Assembly (NCBI GenBank): GCA_001798075.1
Contig: MGRG01000012.1
Location: forward strand, 1 to 64,000
DNA length: 64,000 nt
Reading direction: 5' to 3'
DNA from: Deltaproteobacteria bacterium RIFCSPHIGHO2_01_FULL_43_49
Lineage (GTDB): Bacteria; UBA10199; SPLOWO2-01-44-7
Positions 8,012 to 23,984 of this stretch are shown here, one piece after another; the first letter of the stretch is position 1; each line of letters begins with the position of its first letter. The notes below the pieces were generated by a model. The model had not been told where the DNA came from. It did no database searches and saw only the letters and a program-made list of their open reading frames with translations. Made by a program: the position numbers and the translations under genes.

Positions 8012-8083
8012 GATTATATTTAGAACTTAACAAAATCAATCACTTACGTTAACAGAAGCATCCTATGAGAATTTAGGAAACTA

Positions 8084-8122
8084 TTGACAGAATGTTAACT
8101 TTAAGTTAACTTTAAGTTAATC
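8084..8122 (+). promoter_or_regulatory. Promoter and operator of the Phd/VapC-like pair
   Basis: TTGACA at 8084-8089 is followed after 17 bp by TAACTT (8107-8112), a usable sigma-70-type promoter. The stretch 8095-8120 consists of three TTAACTTTAAG-type units in tandem, forming overlapping near-palindromes over the -10 box. This is the usual location for autorepression by an antitoxin or toxin-antitoxin complex. Confidence 0.6.
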
Positions 8123-8123
8123 T

Positions 8124-8369: not shown

Positions 8370-8791
8370 GTCTTTTGACCATTGATTCCTCCGTTTATCT
8401 TTCCGCTCTGATTGCGGCTGATTCTTTTCACAAACCTTCTAAGGAATTCTTCCATCAAATAAATAAGAAGAAGGTGGATGTTGTTTTGCCTATTCTTGTG
8501 CCTTTAGAAGTTGCCAACATTTTATGTCGGCAAGGACTACCCATCACTAAAGTTCAACAGATTTTTGAAAGCTTTTATTCAACACCGAAGACACGGATTC
8601 TTGCTTTGGATTGGGCTCTTGGAAAGGCTTTTATTGAAGAGATTGGGAAATTTAATTTAAAAACCGCTGATTGGCTTATTGCTGCTACTTGTTTCTATTT
8701 AGAATCGACTCTTATAACATGGGACAAGCAACTTTTAGAAAATACAAAAGTTTTGTTGAAAAGTAAAATGCCAACAGAATGGATGGAATAA
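8366..8791 (+). CDS. PIN-domain ribonuclease toxin (VapC-like)
   Basis: A 141-residue PIN-domain protein, the toxin of the preceding antitoxin. The acidic metal-binding residues are present: Asp7 in LTIDSSVYLS, Glu48 in VPLEVANIL, Asp102 in KTADWLIAA and Asp120 in TWDKQL. VapC toxins cut specific RNAs such as tRNA or the sarcin-ricin loop, using Mg or Mn; the target here cannot be predicted. The gene starts inside the antitoxin stop codon, so their synthesis is coupled. The tail after the last acidic residue is short and complete. Confidence 0.9.
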   Translation: MSLLTIDSSVYLSALIAADSFHKPSKEFFHQINKKKVDVVLPILVPLEVANILCRQGLPITKVQQIFESFYSTPKTRILALDWALGKAFIEEIGKFNLKTADWLIAATCFYLESTLITWDKQLLENTKVLLKSKMPTEWME

Positions 8792-8795
8792 TAAA

Positions 8796-9707
8796 TTATT
8801 TTTTGCATTCGAATTGGAGGTTGGTGTGAGTGATGTGGAAGCGTTCACGTAGGACCGTGTTGACCTTTTTGCGGATTTTTTCCGATTCACTGACCGTTAC
8901 ATCGTCAATTTCGATGTGGGCCGTAAAAGCACACAAGCCAGAAGTTAGCTCCCACATGTGAATATGGTGAAGGTGGTGAATCTCCGGCAATTCTTTTTTG
9001 ATCGTGGCGATAATCTGGTTTTTGGAAAGATGTTTGGGTGTTGATTCCAAAAGGATGTGGACGGACTCTTTAATCAATCGAAAAGACCAAATAAAAATCA
9101 TCAATGCAATCAAAATGCTAGCTAACGGATCGAGCCAGAGTTTTCCGGTATAAATAATGAGGACTCCTGCAACAATAATCCCAACGGAAGAGGCCGTGTC
9201 GGAGAGCATATGGATGAAGGCGCTTTTTACATTGAGATCCTGAGTCGCAACACTTTTCAAAATCGAAGCCGTTAAAAGATTAACCCCCAAACCAATCGCT
9301 GCAATCACCAACATTTCCGTTGTGGCGATTGGTGTTGGATTGAGAAAGCGCCGGATGGCATCGTAGGCAATCCAGAGAACAATGAATCCCAAAGTGAGAC
9401 CGTTAAAAAGTGCCGCTAGAATTTCTGCTCGATAGAATCCATAAGAGCGGACTTCATCAGCCTCTTTGGTAGCAAACAAAATGGCCACAAAGCTGATGCC
9501 CAAGGCAAAAAGATGGGAAAACATGTGTGCGGAATCCGAAAGAAGGGCTAGCGAGTTGGTCCATAAGCCTCCAAAAAATTCGAGCAACATCGTGACCGCA
9601 GTGATAACCATGCACCAAAGCAAACGTTTTTGTTCTTTGACGCGATATTCATGATTGCCTTTCTTTTCAACGGCAATGCATTCCAATATGTTATGAAGTG
9701 GCGGCAT
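8796..9707 (-). CDS. Cation diffusion facilitator (CzcD/ZitB-like)
   Basis: A 303-residue inner membrane exporter of divalent metal ions driven by proton exchange. Six helices are visible. The transport site is in helix 2 (SDSAHMFSH, Asp and His) and in helix 5 (FIHMLSDTASS, His and Asp), the HDHD-type set usual for zinc. The cytoplasmic C-terminal domain (about 205-303) contains HHLHHIHMWEL and ends with a ferredoxin-like fold. It is the last gene of a minus-strand series and starts 2 bp after the asnS stop, so it may be cotranscribed with asnS and galU. Confidence 0.92.
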   Translation of the reverse strand: MPPLHNILECIAVEKKGNHEYRVKEQKRLLWCMVITAVTMLLEFFGGLWTNSLALLSDSAHMFSHLFALGISFVAILFATKEADEVRSYGFYRAEILAALFNGLTLGFIVLWIAYDAIRRFLNPTPIATTEMLVIAAIGLGVNLLTASILKSVATQDLNVKSAFIHMLSDTASSVGIIVAGVLIIYTGKLWLDPLASILIALMIFIWSFRLIKESVHILLESTPKHLSKNQIIATIKKELPEIHHLHHIHMWELTSGLCAFTAHIEIDDVTVSESEKIRKKVNTVLRERFHITHTNLQFECKK

Positions 9708-9709
9708 TT

Positions 9710-10975
9710 TTATGGTGTGAGGCGGTAAATCATTCTAGGAAACGGAATCGATTCACGAACATGTTCCAAATTGCAAATCCAGCTCACTAAACGCTCTAAC
9801 CCAAAACCAAAGCCGGAATGAGGAACGCTGCCGTATTTTCTCAAATCCAAATACCATTCAAAAGCTTCTCTGGGAAGGTTATGTTCTTTGAGTCTTGCTA
9901 ACAAGACTTCGATATCTTCTTCACGCTGACTTCCACCAATGATTTCACCAAAACCCTCTGGGGCAATCATGTCTGCGCAGAGCGCCAAGTTGGAGTTTTG
10001 AGGATCGCGTTTCATATAAAATGCTTTTACTTTTGCCGGATATTTTTCGACAAAAACAGGTTTATCGAACGATTTGGAAAGAAGTGTTTCTTCGTCGCCA
10101 CCTAAATCGTCATCTTCTTTTGCGTCAGCCCCCATTGCCTTTAGTTTTTTCACCACTTCAGCGTGAGTTAGACGATAAAAAGGTGCTTTGATATTTTCGA
10201 GTGGCTTTGGATCCCGCTCTAAAATTTTTAATTCTGTTTGGTTTTTTTCAAGGACGCGCTGAACGATAAAGCTAATTAGTTCTTCTTGAATTTTTAAGTT
10301 TTCATCATGTTCGACAAAGGCCATTTCAGCATCCATCATCCAAAACTCAGTCAGGTGGCGACGCGTTTTGCTTTTTTCGGCACGGAATACTGGCCCGAAA
10401 TCGTAGCAACGCCCATGCGCAAAGATTGCCGCTTCAATATAGAGCTGACCCGATTGAGAAAGATAAGCTTTCCCCAAATCAAAATAAGGAACCTCAAAAA
10501 GTGTTGTCGTTCCTTCACAAGCAGCCGGCGTTAAAATTGGCGCATCAATGCGCACAAAACTATTTTTATCCATCCATTCATAGGTGGCATAGATAATTGT
10601 GTGGCGTATTTTTTGAATCGCCCACTGTTTGGGGGAGCGCAGCCACAGGTGACGGTTTTCCAACAAAAAGTCGGGCCCATGTTCCTTTTTGCCGATAGGA
10701 TAGTCTTGAGCCAACTGCACCACTTTCAGATCTTCAACCTGCAATTCATATTCTTCTTTTTTAGGATGCTTGGAGACCTTTCCCGTGAGAATCACCGATG
10801 TTTCAATCGTTATTTTTGGCAAGGGCTGCGTGACGATGGCTTGGCAAAAACCAGAGCCGTCACGGATTTGCAGAAAAGCAATTTTTCCAGAGGAGCGGAA
10901 ATTATAGACCCAGCCTTTGATCGTTACGGTTTGGTCTAGGTGTTTAAATAATTCCTTGATAAATACGTTTGCCAT
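9710..10975 (-). CDS. asnS: Asparaginyl-tRNA synthetase
   Basis: A 421-residue class IIb aminoacyl-tRNA synthetase that charges tRNA-Asn. The N-terminal OB fold (VTIKGWVYNFRSSGKIAFLQ) binds the anticodon. Motif 2 is in FRAEKSKTRRHLTEFWMMDAE (about 196-217), and motif 3 in GFGFGLERLVSWI (about 394-406), followed by the characteristic IPFPRM end. The IPFPR ending and the lack of an insertion favour AsnRS over AspRS. Its start overlaps the end of galU by 32 bp, but MANVFIKELF is a canonical N-terminus, so the overlap appears real. Confidence 0.95.
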   Translation of the reverse strand: MANVFIKELFKHLDQTVTIKGWVYNFRSSGKIAFLQIRDGSGFCQAIVTQPLPKITIETSVILTGKVSKHPKKEEYELQVEDLKVVQLAQDYPIGKKEHGPDFLLENRHLWLRSPKQWAIQKIRHTIIYATYEWMDKNSFVRIDAPILTPAACEGTTTLFEVPYFDLGKAYLSQSGQLYIEAAIFAHGRCYDFGPVFRAEKSKTRRHLTEFWMMDAEMAFVEHDENLKIQEELISFIVQRVLEKNQTELKILERDPKPLENIKAPFYRLTHAEVVKKLKAMGADAKEDDDLGGDEETLLSKSFDKPVFVEKYPAKVKAFYMKRDPQNSNLALCADMIAPEGFGEIIGGSQREEDIEVLLARLKEHNLPREAFEWYLDLRKYGSVPHSGFGFGLERLVSWICNLEHVRESIPFPRMIYRLTP

Positions 10976-11726
10976 ATTCTTTTATTCCAAAATAAAGACT
11001 AGCTCGGATATAACCAATAGGATTTCCGATATCGAAATGTTTCCCTTCGAATTCATAAGCGTAGAGTTTTCCTTGTTTTGCCAAGGTATGCATCGCATCG
11101 GCGAGTTGGATTTCACCATTTTTCCCCGGAGGCGTCTGCTTTAAAATTTGAAAAATTTCTGGTGTGAACAGATAGCGCCCTGCAACCACAAAGCGAGAAG
11201 GGGCCTCTCCTGGTGAAGGCTTTTCCACCACTCTTTTTGCGAGATGCAGCTTTCCTTTTGAAGAGGCGATTTCATAGACTCCGAAAGAACTGATATCCTC
11301 TTTCAGAACTTGCTCCGTTGCATTGACCGACGTTTGGATTTCTCCAAAAATTTTTATCAGTTGAGTGGCAACCGGCACGTCGGAATCAAAAATCACATCG
11401 GGCAGCAAAACGAGAAATGGTTCTTCGTCAATAATCTTTTCGGCGAGACCGACAGCGTGACCCAAACCCAATGCCTCTTTTTGTTCGACAAAATGCAACG
11501 TAAACTCCGGAAAGAAATCTCTCAGATGATACATCGTTGACTTTTTATGAGGAGAAAGGATTAGCACGATTTCTTTTAATTTTGCTCTTTGAGCTTCCTC
11601 TAAAACAAGATGTAGGGAGGGTTTGGTTACAATGGGCAAAAGCTCTTTGGGTGTGATTTTTGTCACAGGCCAAAGACGCTTGCCTAAACCTGCCGCCGGA
11701 ATGACCGCTTTAGTGACTGTTTTCAT
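10944..11726 (-). CDS. galU: UTP-glucose-1-phosphate uridylyltransferase
   Basis: A 260-residue nucleotidyltransferase making UDP-glucose for envelope glycans. The signature AVIPAAGLGKRLWPVTKITP and PKELLPIVTKP (about 8-36) binds the nucleotide; LVLLPDVIFD (about 105-114) carries the metal-binding Asp; VVEKPSPGEAPS and GRYLFTPEIF are conserved GalU segments. It is slightly shorter than common GalU proteins, at the C-terminal end. Its last 32 bp overlap the start of asnS in another frame. It heads a minus-strand series galU-asnS-CDF. Confidence 0.92.
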   Translation of the reverse strand: MKTVTKAVIPAAGLGKRLWPVTKITPKELLPIVTKPSLHLVLEEAQRAKLKEIVLILSPHKKSTMYHLRDFFPEFTLHFVEQKEALGLGHAVGLAEKIIDEEPFLVLLPDVIFDSDVPVATQLIKIFGEIQTSVNATEQVLKEDISSFGVYEIASSKGKLHLAKRVVEKPSPGEAPSRFVVAGRYLFTPEIFQILKQTPPGKNGEIQLADAMHTLAKQGKLYAYEFEGKHFDIGNPIGYIRASLYFGIKEYGKRIYQGII

Positions 11727-11827
11727 ACAATGGTTGCTTTATTTCCGTCAGTGCTGAGAGGGCTTTAACGGATAATCCCTTAAAATTCCACCAGAAATTT
11801 GTGGCACGGTTCTTGCTCTACAGAAAA

Positions 11828-11851
11828 GGTACAAGCCCGCCACTCAAACTT
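11828..11851. repeat. Small hairpin repeat before the beta-helix gene
   Basis: CCGCCACTCAAACTTGGCGG forms a 6-bp stem hairpin directly upstream of the ribosome binding site (AGGGAGGA) of the next gene. It resembles a dispersed microrepeat rather than a terminator, because no T-run follows. It lies in the divergent region between galU and the next gene. Confidence 0.4.
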
Positions 11852-11869
11852 GGCGGACAGGGAGGATTT

Positions 11870-12529
11870 ATGGGAGAACCCATCAAAGTAGCAACCAATA
11901 AAGTTCAAGCAGCACCACCATCAGAGTGGGAGCAGGCCTTGCTGTTGCAAGAAACGGCTCCATCTCCCGAGCACTGTTTAGACCGGTATTTAAAGATTGT
12001 TTCTCATAGGGAAAAACCGGTTCAAAAACCCAATTGGGTTCCAAGGGAAAAATTGGCCACGACGTTTCCCGGTGTTTTATTTCGCGGTGCCTTAATTTTT
12101 GTAGAAGAAGGGGTACTGATTGCACCTGGGGTTATTATTGATACAGAGGATAGTTTCGGCAAATGCGGGCGAATTACTATTAAGGGAGAAAGCGCAATTG
12201 CCAGTGGGAGTGTTTTGAAAGGCGAGGTTGTTCTTGTTGATAGCCGGTTGCGCGCCGGCAGTTTTGTGAGTGGCATTGTGCAATTGACAAAGACTACGAT
12301 GGGAAGGAGTGCCAGTATTGTTGGAGATCAACTTTTGTTTTATGAATCTCTTATATTAGGTTCTGTTTCAGGCAATGCGATTCGCATGAATCAAGCAACC
12401 GTCACTTCTCAGGGAATGGTAGCGGGTTCCAACATTGTGGTTTATCCCGAAACGGTTGTCGCCAAAGCTGAAATTGGATCCAACAGGCAATTGGGTGACA
12501 TCAAAGAAGAGGAATTATCTTTAAAATGA
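11870..12529 (+). CDS. Hypothetical protein with right- or left-handed beta-helix-like repeats
   Basis: A 219-residue protein with no named family that I recognise. From about residue 75 it is a run of short glycine-rich strands (VLFRGALIFVEEGVLIAPGVIIDTE, then GKCGRITIKGESAIASGSVL) typical of hexapeptide or bactofilin-like solenoids. There is no signal peptide, so it is probably cytoplasmic. The ATG at 11870 has an excellent AGGGAGGA site 7 bp upstream; an extended N-terminus from 11801 would translate a hairpin repeat. It is divergent from galU and convergent with the TonB gene. A role in polysaccharide or envelope synthesis is only suggested by location. Confidence 0.5.
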   Translation: MGEPIKVATNKVQAAPPSEWEQALLLQETAPSPEHCLDRYLKIVSHREKPVQKPNWVPREKLATTFPGVLFRGALIFVEEGVLIAPGVIIDTEDSFGKCGRITIKGESAIASGSVLKGEVVLVDSRLRAGSFVSGIVQLTKTTMGRSASIVGDQLLFYESLILGSVSGNAIRMNQATVTSQGMVAGSNIVVYPETVVAKAEIGSNRQLGDIKEEELSLK

Positions 12530-12535
12530 ATTGCA

Positions 12536-13144
12536 TTAAGGTTTTCCGCTTAAAGCATAGCGAATGCTTAAGGCAATAGGATCAGGATAAAATGGAAGGG
12601 AACCCGCTTGTTTTACAGTTTGGATAGCGGCTTCGTCAAGAAGCTCTGAACCCGATGTTTGTTGCAAACGGACATATTCAATAGAACCATCGTTTTGAAT
12701 TTTAAATTCCACCACAGGGGCCCCTTCGATGTTTTGCCTTTTTGCAATCAACGGATAAAATTTGGCCCGCTCAATTTTGTTACGTATTTGGCGAAGAATT
12801 TCGGAGGTTCCTCCCTCGCCAGCTTCCCCAAAGGCTTCCGCTCCTGTTGGAAGCAACGGCGCGAGCGAGTTGGATTCGAAGGGCCTCTCGGAGGCACTGG
12901 CGACAACGGGGGATTTATCACTGCCAGTGCCGAGAGCGGAGTGGGTGTTTTGGGGCTCTCCCCAAACCAACCCACGTCCCTGAGAATTCAACGAACGGAA
13001 GCCGTTGCCTGTCACTAATGACACAGTGACAAAGCCCTCTTGTTTTTCTCCAGATGGGCGAATGGTTTCAGAGAAGTTGTACCAGAGAAGTCCTAACAAC
13101 AATCCATGTCCTAGCAGGGAGACAAGGAGCGCTTTTGAATCCAT
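12536..13144 (-). CDS. TonB-like energy transducer
   Basis: A 202-residue protein with one N-terminal membrane helix (ALLVSLLGHGLLLGLLW), a flexible linker of about 85 residues, and a C-terminal TonB domain: RNKIERAKFYPLIAKRQNIEG, then VVEFKIQNDGSIEYVRLQQTSG and a last AIQTVKQAGSLP. Such proteins pass ExbB/ExbD energy to outer membrane receptors. It is the last gene of the minus-strand run receptor-lipoprotein-DUF6580-TonB and overlaps DUF6580 by 34 bp. The linker lacks the usual long Pro-Glu/Pro-Lys spacer. It probably serves the TonB-dependent receptor encoded at 14845-16848. Confidence 0.85.
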   Translation of the reverse strand: MDSKALLVSLLGHGLLLGLLWYNFSETIRPSGEKQEGFVTVSLVTGNGFRSLNSQGRGLVWGEPQNTHSALGTGSDKSPVVASASERPFESNSLAPLLPTGAEAFGEAGEGGTSEILRQIRNKIERAKFYPLIAKRQNIEGAPVVEFKIQNDGSIEYVRLQQTSGSELLDEAAIQTVKQAGSLPFYPDPIALSIRYALSGKP

Positions 13145-13626
13145 ACCTGGGACCTTTCAATGATCGTGAACAGACCAAAAGACCAACAAAGATCCCCCAG
13201 AAGCTGATTCTTTAAGAAAGGAAGCGCCATGAGATAACATTGAAAAAGTCCTTCCAATGTTTTGGTGTAAAGCATTCCTTCCATCCAGACACCCAAATTA
13301 CTGATGACAAAAAATTGTAGGCTTCCAACAACACTCAACATACCAAGTTTAAGATAACGATTGGACCCACTAATGAAACCACCCAGAAAAATACTGATTG
13401 CAAAACTTGCGTAGATGAAAGGTGTAACTAAAGACCATGGCTTAACATCAAAAAAGATTCCTAATAAAAAATCGCTTAAAACCAGTGCGATAAAAGGAGT
13501 TGTCCATCTCCACAATTTAGAAAGTTTCGCTCCACCAACCAAGGCAACGGCCCCAACCGGAGTGACATTGACAGGATGCGGGATTAATCTCGCAAGAACA
13601 GCAACCAGAATTAAAATGTGATTCAT
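13111..13626 (-). CDS. DUF6580 family membrane protein (ECF-like)
   Basis: A 171-residue protein with five or six membrane helices. The start ARLIPHPVNVTPVGAVALVGGA is the hallmark of the DUF6580 family, and FVISNLGVWMEGMLYTKTLEGL with the final LPFLKNQLLGDL fits the rest. These proteins resemble substrate-binding subunits of energy-coupling factor transporters; their ligand is not established. Its position between a TonB-dependent receptor with lipoprotein and a TonB protein suggests that it moves the same ligand across the inner membrane. A vitamin such as cobalamin is a reasonable guess, not shown by sequence. Confidence 0.8.
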   Translation of the reverse strand: MNHILILVAVLARLIPHPVNVTPVGAVALVGGAKLSKLWRWTTPFIALVLSDFLLGIFFDVKPWSLVTPFIYASFAISIFLGGFISGSNRYLKLGMLSVVGSLQFFVISNLGVWMEGMLYTKTLEGLFQCYLMALPFLKNQLLGDLCWSFGLFTIIERSQVWIQKRSLSPC

Positions 13627-13669
13627 AAATCTCCTCCCTTAATGTTTCGAAACTCTTAGCATTTCCTAT

Positions 13670-14848
13670 CTATTTGATCAATGTCAGAGATGTGGGTAAA
13701 GCCCCAACCCCCAAAGGCCCTGCCATCATAGCTCCCGTGTTTGGGTCCATAATGAATGTCCCCGTGTTGACTGGGTTTCTTTCCGGAACCCAAAGCAGGC
13801 CATTTTGATCAACCAAAAGATCAGACAGAAAACCACCAGGGCTGGTGTATAAGTTTGTGTTTCCTACCCCTGGTGTTGTGGGGTTGAATGAAGCAATTCT
13901 GGATGCATTGACAGTGATAACCCCTAAATTATCAGAGACAAATCTCAATGTGGATACATAACCAGAAAAATTGGCATCATCAATCAAAATTCCCAGAGAC
14001 AATTTCGTCGCGACATCAATGACTTCAATTCCTCCATAGGGTGTTGAAGTATCGTTATTGAAACTGGAATCAAAAACACCTGTGTCGGTTATCAACAAAC
14101 GGTTGGATGTTGTATGATAGGCAATGTCTGTTGGGTTGCGACCGACAAGTGGGATCGATTGAAGAATCGTATCTGTTTTGGTATCGACGACCACAACTTT
14201 TCCGTTGGTCGTTGCTTCAAAATTTTTGGAAAGGTCTTGGCAGAGCACATAGAGCGTATCCCCCGCAAGTGCCATTTTGGCAGCTCTGGCTAAGCGATCT
14301 CCATCATCAGTTGTGTAGGATTTGAGGTCGAGGCTGGCTAATTTTTTGCCGCTTAATGGCTCTACAACCCACAAATCATCTTTGTTATCTGGATCGAGTT
14401 GGGAATCAAGTCTGGTGATGAACGCTTTACCATTGGCTACCACCAAATCTTGTGGGTTTGCAGACTCTCCTGACGAGTAGTTTCCCAAAATTGCAAAAGA
14501 TTGGGGATCAATTACTTGAATGGTACTGACATTACCCCGATTGATGACAAAAAGTTTTCCATCATAACTTTTCACCACAACATCACTCGAATCGGTGATG
14601 GCTAGTGCTTTCTGCACAGGATGAGGATTGTTGAGCCCCACCGTTGCGATACTTCCCACCGGATCGGTAAAAAACGAGGCGGCGACATAAACATTTTCTT
14701 GAGGGTTTAAACTGAGACTTCCTGCAGAGTCATCATCATCGACCGCTTTTTTGATTTGTTCGATGATGTAGCCTGGTCCACATCCAAAAAGAAAAATACT
14801 AAATCCTAAACACGAAATTCTAAACAAATTCAAAATACGAATTTTCAT
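13670..14848 (-). CDS. Beta-propeller (YVTN-like) lipoprotein
   Basis: A 392-residue lipoprotein. A lipobox ending in FLFGCGPG (about 18-25) follows a signal peptide whose core LFRISCLGF is encoded by a dispersed AT-rich repeat (see the repeat at 14797-14848). The mature part is a seven-bladed-type propeller with recurrent strands such as VVVKSYDGKLFVINRG, VVVANGKAFITR and KVVVVDTKTDTILQSIPL. The ATG at 14848 overlaps the receptor stop (ATGA), so it is coupled with the TonB-dependent receptor, as is common for surface substrate-binding lipoproteins. The ligand is unknown. Confidence 0.82.
   Translation of the reverse strand: MKIRILNLFRISCLGFSIFLFGCGPGYIIEQIKKAVDDDDSAGSLSLNPQENVYVAASFFTDPVGSIATVGLNNPHPVQKALAITDSSDVVVKSYDGKLFVINRGNVSTIQVIDPQSFAILGNYSSGESANPQDLVVANGKAFITRLDSQLDPDNKDDLWVVEPLSGKKLASLDLKSYTTDDGDRLARAAKMALAGDTLYVLCQDLSKNFEATTNGKVVVVDTKTDTILQSIPLVGRNPTDIAYHTTSNRLLITDTGVFDSSFNNDTSTPYGGIEVIDVATKLSLGILIDDANFSGYVSTLRFVSDNLGVITVNASRIASFNPTTPGVGNTNLYTSPGGFLSDLLVDQNGLLWVPERNPVNTGTFIMDPNTGAMMAGPLGVGALPTSLTLIK
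14797..14848 (-). repeat. Microrepeat family G, copy 1: encodes the lipoprotein signal peptide core
   Basis: AT-rich repeat built from the units CTAAATCCTAAAC-CACGAAATTCTAAAC-AAATTC. Read on the minus strand it encodes MKIRILNLFRISCLGFSI, i.e. the positive and hydrophobic parts of the signal peptide. A second copy gives NLFRISCLGF in the adjacent receptor. Similar repeats lie outside genes at 21504-21568 and 35146-35279. Confidence 0.75.
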
Positions 14849-16848
14849 AGCTTTAGTTCCAACTCTCCCCAATAAGATCTCCCGGGAAGCGGGAAGCCTG
14901 CAATATCGGCAATTCGGTCATTGAGCAAGTTTTTTGTGGTGAAAGAAATTCGCATCCATTTTAGCGGTTCCAGATGTGTACCAGCAGACAAAAGAGTGCG
15001 CTGAGTTACTTTGAGGAGATTTTGAGAATCCAAAAAATTGTGGCTCAAGATCTGCAATTGGAAGAAAGGCCTCAAAAACCGATATTGATATTCACCCTCT
15101 ACAGTCCATTGGTGTTTAGGCCTTCCAGGCAAGAAGTTTCCTTTGGTTGGTGACGTGTCCGACGCATCTTTGGCGGTCTGATAAACATAGTGACTACTCA
15201 TTTTAAGGTTTTTAAATATCCTGATGGATAATCCAAATTCTCCACCTAAAATCAAAGCACTGTTCAAATTTTGCGCCTTGGCGGTAAATTGAGACGTTTG
15301 CAAAAATTGAATGAGGTTATCTATTTCATGTCGGAAATAAATCATTTCTAAATTTAAATCATCGATAACCCAAAAGTTTTGCCAACGCCCATGAATCCCT
15401 AGGTCAAAGTTGATCGCCTCTTCCGGTTTTAAGTTGGGATTTCCCACCAATGTGCCACGGTCGCCAAAAAGCTCACCAAAAGTTGGTTGACGAAAACCAC
15501 GGTAGACATTGGTTTTGAGACTTAAGAATCGCCACGGTGAAATTTTAATTCCCAATTTTGCGGAAATTTGTCTGTCGGTCACGTCATTGAAACTCTGCCC
15601 GCTCAAATGATTGAGAAAAATTTGAAATCGCAACGAGGGATCCAAAATCACTTTGTCATCTAAAAAGCTGATTTCATCTTCCAGTCCGACACTAACCATA
15701 TGCCTTTGGCTCAGGGGCCCTTGTTGCGGAGTTACCAGTCTGTCAAAGGGCCAGAAAAATTCGCCTCGGTGAGCAAGAAAGCCGCTAAAAATATGGTTTT
15801 GCAAAGGATGGCTCAAATGAAACTCGGGGCCGAGCCGGAAGGTTTCATCTTTATTATCCTGGGTACCGACGCCGATTTCTCCCAGGGGGTCTTCAAATTC
15901 GCTTTTAAGATAATCGAAAAAAAGGTGGGCTTGCCAATTTTTTCTGTTTAGCTTGGCGTGAATAAAATTTCTTAGAGTACCCAATCTTGCTCGGTTGGAA
16001 GTAGAACTCCCCAAACCAGGAATTCCCTCTTCTTTGATAAAGAAGTTTTCATATACTTTCCAATTAAGGGCCTCTTTTTTTTCTTCCCCGAAAGTGGCCG
16101 TGACATCATAAGATCCAAAATCGTTGTTGCCTCTATTAATGATGCGATCGTCAGAACGATTAGCACGTGTTCCCCTGTCATCTAGAAAAGGAAAATCGCC
16201 ACGGCTTCTGAAATGATGAAACGAGGCATTGTAATAAAAATCGCCAAACGCCTGGGCGCGTTGGATGTGACCCTGATAGGTATAAAAAGAGCCAAGAGAA
16301 TTTCGAATGGTATTTTTTGTTTCTGCAGGTTTTCCCTTGGTATGAATAGTGATGACCCCGCCAGGCGTTGAGTCAACAATTTTTCCAGGCGAACCCCCAC
16401 GGTAAATTTCAATCCGCTCAATATGATCCAACGGTAAAAAGGAAAGGTCGGTTAGTCCTCCTTGTGCCGTATTGAGTAAAACGCCATCAAGATAAATCAA
16501 AACTTGATCTGTTGTGGAGCCGCGAATCGAAATGGCCGCAAAATCATCCAGACCTCCATAGCGCTTGATCTGAACTCCCGCAGCTCTTTCCAAAAGTTGC
16601 GGTAGTGTTTGTGCCAGGCCAGGGACTTTTTTGGGGACAATCACTTGAGCCTGAGCTGCTGTATCCAGCTGGACTTCCTCTTGGTCTTGAACGGTAATGT
16701 CGATCTGCGCCTTCTCGTTCGCCCAAACATTACAGGAAATTATAAATCCTAAGCACGAAATTCTAAACAAATTCGAAATTCCAAACACCAAATTCCAAAC
16801 TGTTTTTATTTTTTTTCGGATTTCGGATTTCGGATTTCGGATTTTCAT
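14845..16848 (-). CDS. TonB-dependent outer membrane receptor, BtuB-like
   Basis: A 667-residue receptor. After a signal peptide ending near VWANEKAQ there is a TonB box-like segment, then the plug domain (TLPQLLERAAGVQIKRYGGL, IRGSTTDQVLIYLDGVLLN, IERIEIYRGGSPG, about 78-175) and a 22-strand barrel ending in aromatic SYWGELELKL. The plug wording is close to BtuB-type vitamin B12 receptors, but the family is broad. The first 35 residues are encoded by AT-rich microrepeats (see 16740-16848), so the signal peptide was apparently assembled from repeats. It is coupled to the lipoprotein gene by ATGA overlap. Confidence 0.88.
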   Translation of the reverse strand: MKIRNPKSEIRKKIKTVWNLVFGISNLFRISCLGFIISCNVWANEKAQIDITVQDQEEVQLDTAAQAQVIVPKKVPGLAQTLPQLLERAAGVQIKRYGGLDDFAAISIRGSTTDQVLIYLDGVLLNTAQGGLTDLSFLPLDHIERIEIYRGGSPGKIVDSTPGGVITIHTKGKPAETKNTIRNSLGSFYTYQGHIQRAQAFGDFYYNASFHHFRSRGDFPFLDDRGTRANRSDDRIINRGNNDFGSYDVTATFGEEKKEALNWKVYENFFIKEEGIPGLGSSTSNRARLGTLRNFIHAKLNRKNWQAHLFFDYLKSEFEDPLGEIGVGTQDNKDETFRLGPEFHLSHPLQNHIFSGFLAHRGEFFWPFDRLVTPQQGPLSQRHMVSVGLEDEISFLDDKVILDPSLRFQIFLNHLSGQSFNDVTDRQISAKLGIKISPWRFLSLKTNVYRGFRQPTFGELFGDRGTLVGNPNLKPEEAINFDLGIHGRWQNFWVIDDLNLEMIYFRHEIDNLIQFLQTSQFTAKAQNLNSALILGGEFGLSIRIFKNLKMSSHYVYQTAKDASDTSPTKGNFLPGRPKHQWTVEGEYQYRFLRPFFQLQILSHNFLDSQNLLKVTQRTLLSAGTHLEPLKWMRISFTTKNLLNDRIADIAGFPLPGRSYWGELELKL
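16740..16848 (-). repeat. Microrepeat family G, copy 2: encodes the receptor N-terminus
   Basis: The first part (16740-16800) carries CTAAGCACGAAATTCTAAAC and AAATTC units like copy 1. The second part (about 16816-16844) is four tandem copies of the heptamer TTTCGGA. On the minus strand the heptamers read MKIRNPKSEIRKK and the rest reads NLVFGISNLFRISCLGF. The heptamer is stop-free on both strands, and the whole stretch forms the signal region. Confidence 0.75.
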
Positions 16849-16919
16849 AACTTAGGATTAGCCCTTGCCTCGGTTCTAGGATATAAGATAAGGCTTCGCA
16901 CCTACATAGGGGGAGACCT

Positions 16920-18320
16920 TTGGCACGTCAACTGAATCTCGATCGCGACAAACTCGATTCGTGCTACGAACTAGCAGCCCAAATCGTTTCACACACTGCT
17001 AAGTATTTAGACAGACACTCCAGCTCAAGTATTGAGCGGACAACGTTGACTTTGTTGGGTGTGGAGGGAGAGCATCGGGGCATCCCTTTTGCTTCGTTGA
17101 TGGTTGAAAAACTCTCCAAAGATCAACTCCGTTTGGGAGTGGCCCATTGGTGGACAAGGGCCCTTTTGGCCACCGCCGAAGAGCCAAAAAAGCTGGCGGA
17201 GCAATTGGCGAGGGGAAAACTGAAATGGAATGATCTCAAGGAGATGCCTCCCAGTGAAATTCGAAAAAAAGCGCAACAACTAGCAGAAGAAAATTTACAA
17301 AAACTGGATCAAAGCAAAAGTCTTCCTATTCAATCCATTTTTTATCAAAGGATGTTGAAACCCCCAGTGGCTTTTTATCACGATGATGTGAAAACGAGAC
17401 GATTGCTGGGAGCACTACACGATGTGAAGAAAAAAGGGGCTGCCTTTTGTGTGACAAAGGTTTCTTCAAAGGAATTTTTGAAGGAAGTTTATGAAACACA
17501 CTTTTTGAAAAGTTTTTGGCAAGAGGCAAAAGAATTTCCAATGGTGGTGACGACCCAGGGGCTTTCTGTTCCCGAACAAACTCTGATGGCTTTGCAGTTG
17601 GGTTTTCGAGCGATTGCCTTAGATGGTCTCAATAACTCTCTGGCAGGAGAAGTTGGTTTAAAGCGCTCTTTGGTGGATCTCAATTTTTCTTTGATTCTTT
17701 GTGCGAGGCTGTCGGCCAAGATTGTCAGCCGGTATTTGCCGCGTTTTAATCCTTCTCAAATGTTTTCCAATTTTCTTCTTTATGAACAGTTTGCAAGGCG
17801 CCACGAAATCAGTTTTGAAAATATCGTTTTATCTTCAGGACAAACTCAAGATAACAAAGAAAGGGAATTTGTCTCGGCTTTTGGTTTTTCCCAGTTGTTG
17901 AGGGAGGCTTTTTCGCAATCGCCGATATGGTATCGTTTATCCATTGGGGCCGATCCGTTTAATTTTTGGATTGCGGGATTGACGGGTCAAGATTGTTTAT
18001 TGATTGATGCCATGGCGGATGGCCAACTAAAGCAAGCATTGCACTATACAAAACAACTGGAAGGTTTGGGTGATGAAGTAAGCTTTAATACACATGGCAA
18101 AATTGCAAGAGAGGCTCATTTTATCTTGGATCAAACTTGGAAGTTTTTGAAACAGATTCAGCAAAAAACACTTTGGAAGGCTTTTGAAGAAGGTCTCTTG
18201 ACAATGACCCCTTCGCCTGTTGTAAATTTAGGTGAAGAGGGTGTTTTTCAAAAGTCGTATCATTATTTGAATCCAGTATGGGAGCTTTTAGAAAAGCAAC
18301 TTAAGGACTTACGCACTTAA
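16920..18320 (+). CDS. Divergent lysine 5,6-aminomutase alpha subunit-like protein
   Basis: A 466-residue protein that aligns by eye with KamD, the alpha subunit of the B12- and PLP-dependent D-lysine 5,6-aminomutase. Shared features are the N-terminal helices (LNLDRDKL, then an ER...LLGVEG segment, about 39-51), LAEQLARGKLKWNDLK and the C-terminal helical region ending in GLL. The central barrel lacks the conserved segments I would expect (for example the Gly-rich PYGATTEGFGGT region), so catalysis is doubtful. No beta subunit with a B12 domain lies in the window. It starts with TTG after AGGGGGAGA and is divergent from the receptor operon. Confidence 0.6.
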   Translation: MARQLNLDRDKLDSCYELAAQIVSHTAKYLDRHSSSSIERTTLTLLGVEGEHRGIPFASLMVEKLSKDQLRLGVAHWWTRALLATAEEPKKLAEQLARGKLKWNDLKEMPPSEIRKKAQQLAEENLQKLDQSKSLPIQSIFYQRMLKPPVAFYHDDVKTRRLLGALHDVKKKGAAFCVTKVSSKEFLKEVYETHFLKSFWQEAKEFPMVVTTQGLSVPEQTLMALQLGFRAIALDGLNNSLAGEVGLKRSLVDLNFSLILCARLSAKIVSRYLPRFNPSQMFSNFLLYEQFARRHEISFENIVLSSGQTQDNKEREFVSAFGFSQLLREAFSQSPIWYRLSIGADPFNFWIAGLTGQDCLLIDAMADGQLKQALHYTKQLEGLGDEVSFNTHGKIAREAHFILDQTWKFLKQIQQKTLWKAFEEGLLTMTPSPVVNLGEEGVFQKSYHYLNPVWELLEKQLKDLRT

Positions 18321-18359
18321 ACCCCTAAGGGGCCCCTTCGGGGCACTTAGCACTTTTTT
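18321..18359 (+). terminator. Weak stem-loop followed by a T-run
   Basis: CCCCTAAGGGGCCCCTTCGGGGC contains two small GC stems, followed by CACTTAGCACTTTTTT. It could be a weak intrinsic terminator after the aminomutase-like gene. The T-run ends just before the next start codon at 18360, leaving that gene without a clear ribosome binding site. Confidence 0.4.
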
Positions 18360-19289
18360 ATGGCAGGCATTGGCGTCATCTTAAATCCTTATTCTAGGTC
18401 GAACCGCAAAAATCCAGACAGGGCGGAACGACTAGGCTTTATTGTCGGCGATAAAGGTTCCTGCCACGCTACTCAAGATATTTCCGATGTGGAACGTCTG
18501 ACAAAAGAGTTTAAGCAAAGAGAAATCGAAGTGATCGGCATTTCCGGAGGGGATGGGACCTATCAAAAAACACTCACGACGATTGTGAATGTTTATAAAG
18601 ATGCGCCGCTTCCAAAAATTGCTTTTCTTCGTGGTGGCACAATGAATAATGTGGCAGATTGTCTCAAAATTCGGGGTACTCCCGAAACAATTTTGAGCAG
18701 ACTTATTTATCGATATCATCAGGATGTCGAATTCCAGATCGTTAATTTACCTCTGTTGAAAGTAAATAACATTTACGGATTTTTGTTTGGAAACGGTCTT
18801 TTGTATCGCTTTTTGGTCGACTTTAACAAAGTCCTAGAGCCCACCAAATTGAGAGCAGCCTGGATGTTGTTTTTCGCCATGTGTCATGCCTACTGCAACT
18901 CCAAAAGGGGTGCAGAGCTTTGTCAGCGGGTCGATGCCGATGTTTTGATCGATGGCAAACCTTGGCCATTCAAAAATTATGTCACCATTTATGCAGGAAC
19001 TGTTGAGACGTTGGGGTTGGGCTTTTTTGCTTTATATCGCACACGCACAGAGCCTGGAAAGTTTCAAATTAATGCTTTTTCAATGCCACCTAGACAAGTT
19101 GTGAATACCTTTCCAAGAATCCTGATGGGCAAGAAAGTTGGATCGGAACATTATTTAGATGCCATCGCAACGGAAGTAAAGATTCTCACCAAAGAACCGC
19201 AAGGTTTTATGTTGGATGGTGAATTGTATCCCGCTGTGTCAGAAATCAAACTCTCCCTAGGTCCCACCCTTCAGATTATTACTGGGTAA
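18360..19289 (+). CDS. Diacylglycerol kinase family lipid kinase
   Basis: A 309-residue kinase of the DAGK/sphingosine kinase/YegS fold. The ATP-binding motif GISGGDGTYQKTL lies at about 60-72 and the second nucleotide motif LRGGTMNNVADC at about 89-100. The C-terminal domain ends with FMLDGELYPA, the conserved Asp-Gly-Glu metal site. Members phosphorylate diacylglycerol, phosphatidylglycerol or other lipids. It follows the aminomutase-like gene by 39 bp. No nearby gene fixes the lipid substrate. Confidence 0.85.
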   Translation: MAGIGVILNPYSRSNRKNPDRAERLGFIVGDKGSCHATQDISDVERLTKEFKQREIEVIGISGGDGTYQKTLTTIVNVYKDAPLPKIAFLRGGTMNNVADCLKIRGTPETILSRLIYRYHQDVEFQIVNLPLLKVNNIYGFLFGNGLLYRFLVDFNKVLEPTKLRAAWMLFFAMCHAYCNSKRGAELCQRVDADVLIDGKPWPFKNYVTIYAGTVETLGLGFFALYRTRTEPGKFQINAFSMPPRQVVNTFPRILMGKKVGSEHYLDAIATEVKILTKEPQGFMLDGELYPAVSEIKLSLGPTLQIITG

Positions 19290-19332
19290 CAACTCATAGA
19301 CTTTAGAGTGAAAAAGCTTCCACTCACGACGT

Positions 19333-19532
19333 AAGGTGTGAGTCGGTGGCTCTCATTGCTGCGCCTTCCCTTTGCCTATTCGTCCCGAAATTTTGTTTGA
19401 GTGCTTAAAACAAAAATTTGGTGCTTTTCCCCTGTCAATCCCCAAATTTTTCAATCAATACAAAATTTCGCTCCTCATACGGCTCCGGTCAAAACGGCGC
19501 TTTATGCAATGAGAGCCACCTCCTTACACCTT
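19333..19532. repeat. Inverted-repeat element family E
   Basis: About 200 bp bounded by arms beginning AAGGTGT: left 19333-19359 and right 19506-19532, with a perfect 14-bp inner part (GTGGCTCTCATTGC and its complement). A second internal inverted pair, GCGCC...CGAAATTTTGT, sits inside. No coding potential is visible. The arrangement (nested inverted repeats, no ORF) fits a small non-autonomous palindromic element. It is directly followed by the family D copy. Confidence 0.65.
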
Positions 19533-19560
19533 CATCCTTGAGAGGAATGAAATCGCGCAA

Positions 19561-19748
19561 GGGCAGGACTGGGGGTGTGAAAAACATTGTGCGGGAACGA
19601 GGGCGTATCGAGTCAAACAAAATAATATTCGTTTCTGCAGATAGAGCTGACGGAGGTAAGATACTATCTGCATCTTTTGAAACGAAATTATTTTTTTGAC
19701 GAGATAGCCCGAAGTGGAGCACCGTTTTGAACACCCCCACTCCTGCCC
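19561..19748. repeat. Inverted-repeat element family D, copy 1
   Basis: A 188-bp element with terminal arms GGGCAGGACTGGGGGTGT and ACACCCCCACTCCTGCCC (17 of 18 pair). Its interior contains a long inverted repeat around AATATTCGTTTCTGCAGATAG, so it could fold into a large hairpin. A nearly identical interior occurs in opposite orientation at 60188-60378, differing at a handful of positions. It carries no gene. It occupies most of the gene-free stretch 19290-19795 together with element E. Confidence 0.8.
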
Positions 19749-19795
19749 GAAAGCGATCGACCCAGTTTCGAACCCGCTCGTTTTTATTTTCCGTT

Positions 19796-20509
19796 CTAAG
19801 CGAGGCGATTGTGATGAGTAACGGCCCATTCTTCTTGGGCCAGTTGGTAGCTCTCTTTGGAGCCGATGTCGCGCCAGTAACCTTCATGAACAAAGGCCGA
19901 AATGGCTTTTACTTTTTGCATGAGGGGAGCAATGCCATCGAGAATCAGGTTAGACGGTTTTTCTGATAGAGTTGAAAAAATAGGAGGGCTTAAGACAGTA
20001 AGCCCCGTAAACAGATGATCTCCCACGTCGATATTAAGCAGTCTTTTGTTTCCCACTTGAAGTCTTGTATAGCCTTCTTGCCACGGGGCTACGACTAGTG
20101 TTGCTGGTGATTTTTGTTCCGCATGAAATTGAGAGAGTTCATTTAAATCACAGTTGATCAACGTATCGCTATTCAAAGTAAAAAATGCCTCTTCATTTTT
20201 GAAATGACTTTCTACTTTTTTTAATCCACCGGCTGTGCCTAAAAGTTTTTCTTCGTGTGAATAACGAATTTTAAGCCCATATTTTTTCCCATCGCCGACA
20301 TGTTGCTCAATTTTTTCACCCAAATAATGCAAATTAATTACCACCTCTTCCACACCAAATTTTTTCAAATAAGAAAGTGAATAGTCGATGATGGGGCGAT
20401 TGCCCAAAGGCAAGAGGGGTTTCGGATTTTTCTCAGTCAAGGGTTTTAAACGTTCCCCCAACCCCGCTGCAAAAAGAAAGGCCTTTTTAATATTTTTTGA
20501 TGAGGTCAT
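19796..20509 (-). CDS. Sugar-1-phosphate nucleotidyltransferase, MurU-like
   Basis: A 237-residue nucleotidyltransferase. The signature FLFAAGLGERLKPLTEKNPK with PKPLLPLGNRP (about 10-39) is clear, followed by the Mg-binding TLNSDTLIN (about 105-113) and a C-terminal HEGYWRDIGSKESY (about 215-228). The closest family is the MurNAc-1-phosphate uridylyltransferase MurU group. Overlap by 23 bp with an AmgK-like kinase strongly supports the peptidoglycan recycling route MurNAc to MurNAc-1-P to UDP-MurNAc. This route normally bypasses de novo UDP-MurNAc synthesis. Confidence 0.85.
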   Translation of the reverse strand: MTSSKNIKKAFLFAAGLGERLKPLTEKNPKPLLPLGNRPIIDYSLSYLKKFGVEEVVINLHYLGEKIEQHVGDGKKYGLKIRYSHEEKLLGTAGGLKKVESHFKNEEAFFTLNSDTLINCDLNELSQFHAEQKSPATLVVAPWQEGYTRLQVGNKRLLNIDVGDHLFTGLTVLSPPIFSTLSEKPSNLILDGIAPLMQKVKAISAFVHEGYWRDIGSKESYQLAQEEWAVTHHNRLA

Positions 20510-21503
20510 AGAGTCCGTTGTATTCTGGAAGCCTTGCCAATGCCTGTTTTACATAACCCATGGATGTTGGGATGAATTTCAGAAAATCAGGATTCTTTTT
20601 TACATGATCGATAAAAACAAACCGCCCGGAGTCTTTGAGTTTGCGCTGCACCGTTTGCAGATCAAAAGCCCTCCGTAATTTTTTGATATGCCAACCCTGC
20701 TGCCCGCCATAATATTCGAGCAGCTCTTCCAAATAATCGGTCACATCAAAATAGGAATCCCTCAGCAAACTGACCAGATCATAAACATCGGGCCCCAAAA
20801 GGGCATCCTGAAAATCGGTCATGGTGAGTTGGTTGTTGTGGACCATCAGATTACTTCCTTGAAAGTCACGGTGTGTAAATACTTGCGGCATCGCACAGAG
20901 TTCTTGCGTAATTTTCCTCGTCTCCTTTATGAAAATATCTTTGTCCTCAGCTGATGGCTGACAGCTGACAGCTGACAGCTGAAAGTAGTATTCAAGGAAA
21001 TGATCAAACTCCCAGTTAAAAAGGGTGGCGTCAAAAGAGCGTTGATAGGCGATACAACTTGTGCTGATGTGCTGATGTGCTGATGTGCTGATGTCTTTTG
21101 AAGTTTTGTTTTGTAAAATCACTAGGAGATCGAGGGCTTTTTTGTACCATTTTTTAATATCATTGGGCTGAGCCGTTTTAACAGTGTCCCAAAGTTTTGT
21201 GTCGCCTAAATCATTCAGGATAATCCAGCGATCCTCTTCGCTAAACAGTTTGATTTCGGGGACAGGAAGCCCTAATGATTTGAGATAGCGCTGGACATTA
21301 ATATAAGAAAGCTCCTTCGGTTTTTCTTTTAAATTTGTGATTTCCTCCGAGACACTCATTTTACCTTCTGGCATCGCCATCAAAATAAAAGTCTCATCGC
21401 CTTGTGAAAAAACCCGATAAAAAGTTCGGTAAGAAGCCCCTCCATAGAGTTTCGTTACCTTGATAACAGGCTTACCTAGAAGTTGAGTTAATCTTGCTTC
21501 CAT
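20487..21503 (-). CDS. Anomeric MurNAc/GlcNAc kinase-like phosphotransferase (AmgK-like)
   Basis: A 338-residue member of the aminoglycoside phosphotransferase fold. The catalytic loop THRDFQGSNLMV (about 211-222) and DFQDALLGPDVYDLVSLL (about 231-248) match AmgK, which phosphorylates the anomeric position of MurNAc. It feeds the overlapping MurU-like gene. Two in-frame low-complexity inserts, STSAHQHISTS (about 137-147) and QLSAVSCQPSA (about 175-185), are encoded by octamer and heptamer repeats and appear to be insertions between structural elements. The gene is preceded by an AT-rich repeat with no Shine-Dalgarno. Confidence 0.82.
   Translation of the reverse strand: MEARLTQLLGKPVIKVTKLYGGASYRTFYRVFSQGDETFILMAMPEGKMSVSEEITNLKEKPKELSYINVQRYLKSLGLPVPEIKLFSEEDRWIILNDLGDTKLWDTVKTAQPNDIKKWYKKALDLLVILQNKTSKDISTSAHQHISTSCIAYQRSFDATLFNWEFDHFLEYYFQLSAVSCQPSAEDKDIFIKETRKITQELCAMPQVFTHRDFQGSNLMVHNNQLTMTDFQDALLGPDVYDLVSLLRDSYFDVTDYLEELLEYYGGQQGWHIKKLRRAFDLQTVQRKLKDSGRFVFIDHVKKNPDFLKFIPTSMGYVKQALARLPEYNGLYDLIKKY
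20947..20985 (-). repeat. Heptamer microrepeat inside the AmgK-like gene (QLSAVSC type)
   Basis: Tandem GCTGACA heptamers (plus-strand), at least three units with a diverged fourth. On the coding strand they read QLSAVSCQPSA. The coding orientation is the stop-free one; the opposite strand would give TGA. The insertion sits between two helical segments of the kinase. Confidence 0.8.
21058..21096 (-). repeat. Octamer microrepeat inside the AmgK-like gene (HQHIST type)
   Basis: Four tandem GTGCTGAT octamers (plus-strand), read on the minus strand as DISTSAHQHISTS. The coding orientation is stop-free, whereas the other strand contains TGA. It is the second in-frame microrepeat in the same gene. 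Confidence 0.8.
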
Positions 21504-21568
21504 AGAAATTCTAAATTCTAATATCTAAATTCTAAACAAATTCCAAATTCTAAATTCCCTAAATTCGT
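21504..21568. repeat. Microrepeat family G, copy 3, upstream of the AmgK-like gene
   Basis: AT-rich tract of TCTAAATTC and CTAAACAAATTCC units immediately upstream of the start codon at 21503. It replaces the position of a ribosome binding site. It is related to the repeats at 14797-14848, 16740-16848 and 35146-35279. Confidence 0.7.
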
Positions 21569-22149: not shown

Positions 22150-22752
22150 ATGCTTTCCAAGAGACAAAAAGAAGTCTATGATTTTATTCATAAATTTCTT
22201 GAAAAGCATGGTTATGCCCCAAGCCTAGAAGAGATTGCCAATCACTTTAAACTCTCCGCCGTCTCTACAGTTCATCATCATGTGGGAGAACTCGTTAAAA
22301 AAGGGCTCCTCAACAAACGTTGGAATACGAATCGTTCTTTGGAGGTGGTTGGACACACGGCCACTTTGGCGATGGTTGTCCCTTTGTTGGGTGTGATCGC
22401 TGCAGGAAAACCAATCGAGGCAATAGAACAACAAGAAACAATCGAACTCCCTCCGTCACTGATTGGCCGCAAAGATACTTATGTTTTGAAAGTGCAGGGC
22501 AACTCCATGATCGAAGAACACATTCGCGATGGCGACTATGTAGTGGTGGAGAAACGCGACACTGCAAACAATGGTGAAACAGTCGTAGCCCTCATTAATG
22601 ATAGCGAAGCAACGCTCAAGAAATTTTATCGGGAAAAAGGGGGGATGATTCGATTGCAACCAGCCAATCCCACCATGGCCGCCATTTATTGTCGTGAAGA
22701 AGAGTGTGTCATTCAAGGTGTCGTGATTGCAATTTTACGAAAGTTTAGATGA
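22150..22752 (+). CDS. lexA: LexA SOS repressor
   Basis: A 200-residue transcriptional repressor of the SOS response, full length. Residues 1-65 form the winged HTH (RQKEVYDFIHKFLEKHGYAP, SLEEIANHFKLSAVSTVHHH). The self-cleavage site is Ala85-Gly86 in VIAAGKPIEA. The catalytic Ser119 is in QGNSMIEEHIRDGDYVVV and the Lys157 lies in EATLKKFY. It overlaps dinB by the last codon, so the two form a lexA-dinB operon. A palindrome just upstream may be its operator. Confidence 0.96.
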   Translation: MLSKRQKEVYDFIHKFLEKHGYAPSLEEIANHFKLSAVSTVHHHVGELVKKGLLNKRWNTNRSLEVVGHTATLAMVVPLLGVIAAGKPIEAIEQQETIELPPSLIGRKDTYVLKVQGNSMIEEHIRDGDYVVVEKRDTANNGETVVALINDSEATLKKFYREKGGMIRLQPANPTMAAIYCREEECVIQGVVIAILRKFR

Positions 22753-23984
22753 TGAAAAATTTTTCACCTTTTCAGTGTGAAAAGAAACTCCAGATTAGGC
22801 CACGCGCTGTGGCAGTGGTTCGCGGCGGCAATCGTGTCTTTCTCCATGTCGATCTCGATGCCTTTTTTGCCTCCGTTGAACAAATCAAAAATCCAAAACT
22901 CAAAGGAAAACCGGTCATTGTTGGCGGGCGTAATTCCAGGCGCGGCGTTGTGGCCGCTGCATCCTATGAGGCAAAACGTTTTGGAGTTGAAACCGGAATG
23001 CCTTGGATGCAAGCCAAGCAGAAATGCCCCACCGCCGTCTTTTTGCCAGCCGATTTTGATGCCTATGCTGATTATTCTAAAAAGGTCCAAAATATTTTGG
23101 AAACAATGACTCCTGTTGTGGCGCAAGCCTCCATCGACGAGGCCTATGTCGATTTGACCGGTTGTGAACGCATTTATGGAACACCTCGCCAAGCTGCAGA
23201 AAAAATTCATCAGGCAATTTTAAATCAGACAGGGCTTGAGGCCTCCATTGGGATTGCTGGTTCGCAATCGGTTGCGAAGATGGCATCCAAACTCGCAAAA
23301 CCTTGCGGGATGATGGAAGTCCCAAAAGGGGCCGAGGAAAAATTTTTAGCACCCATGCCCGTTGAAGCCATGCCAGGCATTGGTTTTCAAATTGGCGAAC
23401 GCCTTCGGGGAATGGGGATTTTGACTCTGGGCCAATTGGCAGCCATTCCTCCCAATTTATTGCGCGCTTCGTTTGGCATTTACGGCCCCTTTTTGCGGGC
23501 CAAAGCAAGAGGGGAAGACACTTGGGAGTTAGAAGTGACCGAGGTGATCAAGTCGATTGGGAAACAAGAAACTTTGGAACAAGATGTCAGTGATTGGCCC
23601 GTCATCAAACAAAAATTATTTGAATTGATAGAAAAAGTCGGTAGGAAACTCCGTGAGGAAAATTTGTATGCAAGACGTGTTGTTGTTTTTGTCCGTTATG
23701 CCGATTTTTCAGGTGAGGCGACTTCTAAGACGTTGAGGGAGCCCAGTTCTTTTGATCGTGTTTTATTTAATCATGCCGCAGAGTTGATGCAACCGTTGGT
23801 TGAAAATAAGAAACCGATTCGCTTAGTCGGTTTTTCCGCTCAGGAACTTGTTAAACAACCCCCCCAACTTGACTTGTTTCGTACCCCTAAGGCCCTCCGC
23901 TGGGAGCGGTTTTATAATAGTTTGGATAAGGTCCGAAATCAATTTGGATCAAAAACCCTTCACTTTTGTCTCAAATTATTTTAA
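22749..23984 (+). CDS. dinB: DNA polymerase IV (Y family)
   Basis: A 411-residue lesion-bypass polymerase. The palm motif FLHVDLDAFFASVEQ (about 31-45) contains the catalytic Asp residues, and ASIDEAYVDLTG (about 125-136) the third carboxylate. The fingers, thumb with helix-hairpin-helix (MPGIGFQIGERLRGMG) and little-finger region follow. The N-terminus has about 30 residues before the palm, longer than usual; an internal start is possible. Translational coupling with lexA places it under SOS control. It ends in a beta-clamp-binding-like QPPQLDLF. Confidence 0.94.
   Translation: MMKNFSPFQCEKKLQIRPRAVAVVRGGNRVFLHVDLDAFFASVEQIKNPKLKGKPVIVGGRNSRRGVVAAASYEAKRFGVETGMPWMQAKQKCPTAVFLPADFDAYADYSKKVQNILETMTPVVAQASIDEAYVDLTGCERIYGTPRQAAEKIHQAILNQTGLEASIGIAGSQSVAKMASKLAKPCGMMEVPKGAEEKFLAPMPVEAMPGIGFQIGERLRGMGILTLGQLAAIPPNLLRASFGIYGPFLRAKARGEDTWELEVTEVIKSIGKQETLEQDVSDWPVIKQKLFELIEKVGRKLREENLYARRVVVFVRYADFSGEATSKTLREPSSFDRVLFNHAAELMQPLVENKKPIRLVGFSAQELVKQPPQLDLFRTPKALRWERFYNSLDKVRNQFGSKTLHFCLKLF

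Follow-up and report, generated by a model that had tools for sequence, protein, structure and literature searches.

The locus described here raises the question of how two short tandem arrays, with periods of 7 and 8 nucleotides, came to lie in frame in a single kinase gene, and whether the stop-free orientation of both reflects a general rule. The window (the whole stretch of DNA that was analyzed, 64,000 nucleotides of contig MGRG01000012.1 of Deltaproteobacteria bacterium RIFCSPHIGHO2_01_FULL_43_49) carries the host gene on the minus strand at positions 20487-21503, where a single uninterrupted frame encodes an AmgK-like phosphotransferase of 338 aa with an APH fold, assigned by using Pfam, NCBIfam, AF2 and Foldseek. 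The protein matched Pfam APH (4.2e-16) and NCBIfam AmgK (2.1e-30, under the curated cut-off), its AF2 model from a 30-sequence alignment reached a pLDDT of 91, and its top PDB match in Foldseek was 3csv, a putative aminoglycoside phosphotransferase. Residues H211, R212, D213 and D230-D233 of the catalytic HRD and DFQD-type motifs were invariant or almost so. The 3' end of the gene is overlapped by a MurU-like nucleotidyltransferase gene, the usual AmgK partner (19796-20509, minus strand; NCBIfam NAMPUrTaseMurU, 1.5e-45, below cut-off). The kinase thus has the AmgK feature set of APH fold, HRD/DFQD-type motifs and adjoining MurU-like gene, and it scored 106 bits against the AmgK equivalog model (NF045759), whose cut-off is 550; judged by its sequence, it is AmgK-like only. 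A lexA-like gene and a dinB-like gene (Y-family polymerase) lie near this locus at 22150-23984.

The heptamer array (20950-20981, minus strand; CAGCtgtCAGCtgtCAGCtgtCAGCcatCAGC) is exactly 32 bp long with five CAGC cores at a 7-bp pitch, and encodes QLSAVSCQPSA (residues 175-185) on the coding strand; TRF reported it as CAGCTGA x5 at 20948-20982 with an 85% match. The octamer array (21060-21094, minus strand; ACATCAGC-type) comprises 4.4 pure units in 35 bp, reported by TRF as TGTGCTGA x4.4 with a 100% match, and encodes ISTSAHQHISTS (residues 138-149) on the coding strand. With a gap of about 74 bp and an open ORF throughout, these data bear out the original prediction of two in-frame microrepeats about 75 bp apart in one gene. 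The accompanying claims that the coding sense is free of stops and that the opposite orientation contains TGA were equally correct: no stop was found in any register of the coding sense, and all three antisense frames hold TGA. Structure prediction, proposed as the check on whether the arrays lie in loops, placed both between helices in the AF2 model, where the heptamer coincides with the loop that links helix 159-173 to helix 185-204, and the octamer lies between helix 113-139 and helix 159-173, in a part modeled with low confidence (pLDDT about 60). Both are distant from the catalytic motifs in sequence. The word "insert" suits one array better than the other: the octamer does add length, giving a loop 1 of 21 aa compared to the usual 12-13 aa, an excess of 8 aa that equals three octamers, whereas the heptamer is hardly a net insertion (21 aa compared to 19-20 aa in array-free orthologs). 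A further period-7 array, AAATTCT, was detected by tandem-repeat search in the spacer immediately upstream of the kinase (21506-21536). The exact triple unit of either kinase array occurred only once in the 2.2-Mb genome and was absent from the 45 remaining genomes of the class, and dispersal of the exact units themselves was therefore ruled out, each triple being unique across 46 genomes.

Elsewhere in the family, the same two loops of the kinase orthologs contain different arrays. A CAGC array occupies loop 2 in the genome of the window (G000), in G003, where it is degenerate, and in G004, where it reads CAGCggt x3 + CAGCcatCAGC, and it keeps the same phase in three genera; G005 has GGACC units (a GGAC array) in this loop, and G002 a degenerate CCAA tract. 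In loop 1, the units are CATCGGA in G002 and TCTTCGG in G005, and G003 has an SPSPSP...ARGEG repeat that is unrelated. Across the class, loop 2 measures 19-21 aa with an array or without one, the exception being G001 (12 aa). In a kinase tree built without both loops, G005 grouped with G003 and G004 (supports of 85/77 and 87/92, moderate for this nesting), and its GGAC array therefore most likely took the place of a CAGC array. Matches with four GGAC cores numbered 275 in G005 versus 0 in its congener G003. A contig scan for the kinase recovered only two named loci, which carry the G003 and G002 kinases. At permissive sites where other genera have heptamer arrays, different repeat-like peptides (SPSPQPSPARGEG, SFDKLRMSG and PQPPLLRGDQGG) were noticed in the kinase (L005 and L030), LeuRS (L077) and CarB (L180).

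To place the kinase arrays in context, stretches of G000 and four other family members were surveyed (about 1.3 Mb of metagenome-type assemblies, with few ortholog sets and with genes called by our own ORF scorer). Period-7 arrays numbered 32 in G000, 1 in G003, 2 in G002, 35 in G005 and 25 in G004, compared to 0 in Markov controls; for G000, the 32 arrays were found in 411 kb and the controls were of Markov order 4. Head-to-tail 7-nt units are thus dispersed through the genome far above chance, as described for heptanucleotide SSRs and STRRs. These published repeats are mainly intergenic; 51 of the 99 arrays in the sampled stretches of all genomes fell inside called genes (11/33 further unsure cases were set aside). 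Genes make up 80-90% of the DNA, and per base the spacers are still richer in arrays. Host genes include carA, carB, leuS, gltX, dnaG, rlmD and coxB, and the exported hosts include an outer-membrane efflux protein, an S41 peptidase and a porin. Domain-level outgroups contain period-7 arrays in some cases (G046) with no obvious fixed size. G026, which was left out of the in-gene counts (called coding fraction 0.22), has period-8 arrays of GTACGTTN type that are as common as heptamers and occur in inverted pairs (L096:3744-3862 and 12695-12830; L098:6035-6112); these octamer arrays look like four units and one partial unit.

Column alignment of the arrays revealed a 4-nt core at a 7-bp pitch, separated by three partly variable bases. 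When up to 1 mismatch was allowed per core, the 99 arrays had three cores in 2 cases, four in 19, five in 58, six in 14, and seven or more in 6, so that 58/99 show the five-core, 32-bp form, alike in genes and spacers. Part of this peak could be due to detection, and threshold-free counts of exact cores show the same upper limit: in G005, counted without a score threshold, 17 arrays had five cores and none had six or more. G001, an independent genome, peaks at five as well: among the matches listed for it, exact GGAC cores numbered four in 11 arrays, five in 23, six in 5, seven in 1 and eight in 2; among those listed for G001 and G004 together, the numbers were 21 with four, 31 with five, 7 with six, 2 with seven, 2 with eight and 1 with ten, a peak that does not fit a geometric law, the best-fitting one yielding at least 31 fives at P of about 4e-5. 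The core sequence itself differs between arrays (GGAC, GTTC, CAGC or AAAT), and it is therefore unlikely that a single sequence-specific binding protein or G-quadruplexes set the size.

At several sites the arrays stand in place of sequence of similar length. CarB site B is a unique 25-aa stretch in G000, G003 and G001, a GGAC array of 27 aa in G005, and an opposite-strand array of 25 aa in G004. A second CarB site has GGAC arrays in G004 and G001 and unique sequence of near-equal length in G000, G003 and G005. Net length changed little at these two CarB sites, in loop 2 of the kinase, and at the second of the leuS sites; elsewhere length was gained, by 12 aa at the CarA array, by 8 aa at the octamer of kinase loop 1, and by 4 aa in a porin signal peptide. 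The alignments suggest that arrays often substitute for sequence rather than add to it, pure replacement not being universal, and constant length could also result from an insertion followed by a compensating deletion; at 57-78% identity, the compared orthologs are too distant to define patch edges.

The original prediction had further implied that in-gene arrays generally take the stop-free orientation, and this did not withstand a survey of the kind that it had itself named as its refutation. For arrays with stops on one strand only, three stood in the stop-free sense versus four in the stop-containing sense by column consensus, and by majority unit the split for period-7 arrays was two versus five. 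The frame was fully open on the coding strand in 29/58 in-gene arrays and on the antisense strand in 26/58, and 20/58 would contain an in-frame stop if pure, dodged through unit substitutions. Thirteen of these 20 come from one RHS locus in G000, whose arrays are mutually non-independent, versus 7/41 elsewhere. All compared orthologs keep the frame. The 3:4 split, the similar numbers open on either strand and the stop-dodging arrays together indicate that the stop filter works on a single frame, not on orientation. An orientation rule is contradicted by the 3:4 split and by the CarB site with opposite-strand arrays in two genera, and the stop-free orientation of the kinase arrays is probably a survivor effect. 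Stop-codon logic for the orientation of repeats in ORFs was previously published for TAACTGA heptamers (MacGregor, 2015, PMC4679880). The RHS locus (L040; G000:C3:1-20000, mainly 666-20000) contains about 17 AACTTAG-type arrays in RHS/YD-repeat genes, one of 3352 aa, and their neighbors; the AACTTAG unit has a stop on both strands, and its frames are open since the stop-register unit is substituted.

Hydropathy is visible as a second filter on array sense, which is hydrophilic inside proteins and mostly hydrophobic at signal-peptide-like N-termini. GGAC-type arrays, nearly all of which are open both ways, showed the hydrophilic sense in 15/17 internal cases and the hydrophobic sense in 4/6 N-terminal cases (P = 0.02), and the hydropathy of the inserts correlated with that of their flanks (rho 0.51, P = 1.6e-4). 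When read in the GGTCC sense, heptamer arrays supply the hydrophobic stretch of N-termini that resemble signal peptides, LVLGPWSLVLG (L128:3990-5396, L136:7101-8513 and L118:9109-10398).

Two other arrays in the window agree with what had been claimed for them. The period-7 TCCGAAA array at 16814-16844 (minus strand), which forms the N-terminal end of the TonB-dependent receptor encoded at 14845-16848, is stop-free on both strands, as stated earlier. An AAATCCG array is present at the predicted N-terminus of TonB-receptor orthologs in two genera (window 16814-16844 and L115:417-447), and the true start codon of the receptor may lie downstream of it. The reverse strand of the tolA repeat does contain a stop, GTCCATA on the plus strand giving TAG; this period-7 array with GTCC cores (61476-61509, minus strand; tandem-repeat and core analysis) spans the start codon of the TolA/TonB-like gene (60683-61495). 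A spacer at 35143-35280 holds two period-7 arrays (35143-35173 and 35249-35280) as an inverted pair with 74% matching, and further inverted-pair spacers that could form long hairpins were seen at L122:4450-4540, L139:5446-5585, L144:3278-3362, L150:2728-2811 and L096:8745-8865.

The observations to be explained are the excess over chance, the preference for five cores, the turnover of units and orientations at orthologous sites, the small or zero net change in length at several of them, the kept frame, and the sorting by hydropathy. The kinase inserts are probably members of a large population of short arrays (period 7, some 8; typically five cores; about 32-36 bp) that has been repeatedly written over spacers and tolerant protein segments in this bacterial family. 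Another place in the genome would supply the array as a short copied patch, which would replace about 32 bp through microhomology or template-switch, as in short-patch double illegitimate recombination; partial homogenization within the array would follow. The orientation of entry would not be chosen, and survivors would be those that keep one open frame and a peptide tolerated at the site. On this account the array sequence in the kinase would probably be a tolerated linker without specific function. A stronger version, rather less likely than not, is that these micro-arrays are mobile, have a near-fixed size (five tetranucleotides at a 7-bp pitch, 32 bp) and spread by overwriting rather than insertion, one unit type sweeping a genome and ousting older types at the same protein loops; the copying machinery, rather than sequence, would then dictate the size.

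The main rival is ordinary replication slippage, in which heptamer seeds grow where they arose, are tolerated by the loops, and later lose their excess to selection on length, with no copying between sites. Among long SSRs, heptanucleotide repeats form the most frequent class in many prokaryotes, polymerase slippage has been proposed for them (Mrazek, 2007, as described in PMC4679880), and lineage-specific bases shared by the units of one array, such as CAGCTGT x3 in G000 and CAGCGGT x3 in G004, are what homogenization should leave. Slippage is nevertheless somewhat unlikely as the whole account, given a size distribution that peaks at five cores instead of decaying, the dominance of a single unit type in a genome (GGAC in G001, G004 and G005, none in the congener G003), and the opposite-strand arrays at one CarB site with little or no net gain in length. 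The inverted pairs in spacers, frequent and with gaps of about 5-75 bp, would suit remains of a foldback or MITE-like element with tandem-heptamer ends, solo ends having landed in genes, but flank comparison revealed no evident conserved sequence between or beside arrays, and in-gene arrays are mostly single, which renders this origin improbable; a larger mobile element around the arrays was dismissed, as the flanks share nothing evident.

Two further explanations would give the kinase arrays a function. If the peptides were selected, for example as partner-binding or regulatory loops of the kinase, the constant phase of the CAGC array in three genera would be expected; the array sequences are, however, wholly different between genera, most orthologs in the class are array-free, and model confidence is low at the octamer, so that we regard selection for these peptides as very improbable. 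Least probable of all is phase variation, in which a change in repeat number would toggle the kinase by frameshift. Neither 7 nor 8 is divisible by 3, the octamer array consists of pure units, and gain or loss of one unit would shift the frame; tandem repeats render HMW1A of Haemophilus influenzae phase-variable (PMC8262952). Against this, such arrays occur in indispensable genes (leuS, gltX, dnaG and carB), and with carA also among the hosts phase variation is therefore unlikely; moreover, most arrays are imperfect, every compared ortholog is in frame, and the arrays lie mid-gene.

If non-triplet arrays do overwrite segments of essential enzymes, with the frame kept and little change in length, a mutational process that swaps about 32 bp at once would be at work in these bacteria. 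Such a process would generate new protein loops and would explain odd peptides such as QLSAVSC, TMDHGPWTMD and LELRT in conserved proteins, and it is directly testable by strain comparison. The arrays also show that peptide chemistry, besides stop codons, can filter the orientation of in-gene repeats.

Several known systems resemble the arrays in part. Rickettsia palindromic elements likewise look selfish and are tolerated in frame at the surface of essential proteins; they are longer hairpins that insert, whereas the arrays described here are about 32 bp and often replace. In short-patch double illegitimate recombination, ectopic DNA replaces a few dozen bases by microhomology, leaving clustered changes and little net change in length; it has been described experimentally for arbitrary donor DNA, whereas one class of tandem array is involved here. 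A literature search on short-patch recombination and on repeats in UBA10199 returned nothing on point. Tandem repeats of Borgs (PMC9879509) also lie in genes and create low-structure protein segments, and their in-gene units are always multiples of 3, which the kinase arrays, with periods of 7 and 8, are not.

GGGAATC of Xanthomonas and GGGGA(C/T)T of Nostoc (PMC4692102) share with the present arrays a heptamer period, a conserved core with variable positions, a preferred copy number (there four units), and some inverted pairs. Those repeats are G-rich, have been explained by G-quadruplex formation, and in Xanthomonas are 89-93% intergenic (PMC4692102), whereas the cores here vary (GGAC, GTTC, CAGC and AAAT), and G-quadruplexes therefore cannot set the array size. 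Heptanucleotide SSRs such as TAACTGA of Beggiatoaceae and Cyanobacteria (PMC4679880) and the STRRs of cyanobacteria such as Calothrix are likewise dispersed tandem 7-nt units in 2-6 copies, occasionally in frame. In contrast, about half of the arrays described here lie in genes, many different units share one geometry of five cores in 32 bp, and in related genera different units re-occupy the same loops of housekeeping enzymes. Earlier publications thus cover heptanucleotide repeats, their over-representation in prokaryotes, and the stop-codon reasoning on their orientation in ORFs, whereas the re-occupation of the same loops by different units and orientations, the five-core size across unrelated units, and the sorting by hydropathy are new as far as the literature was searched.
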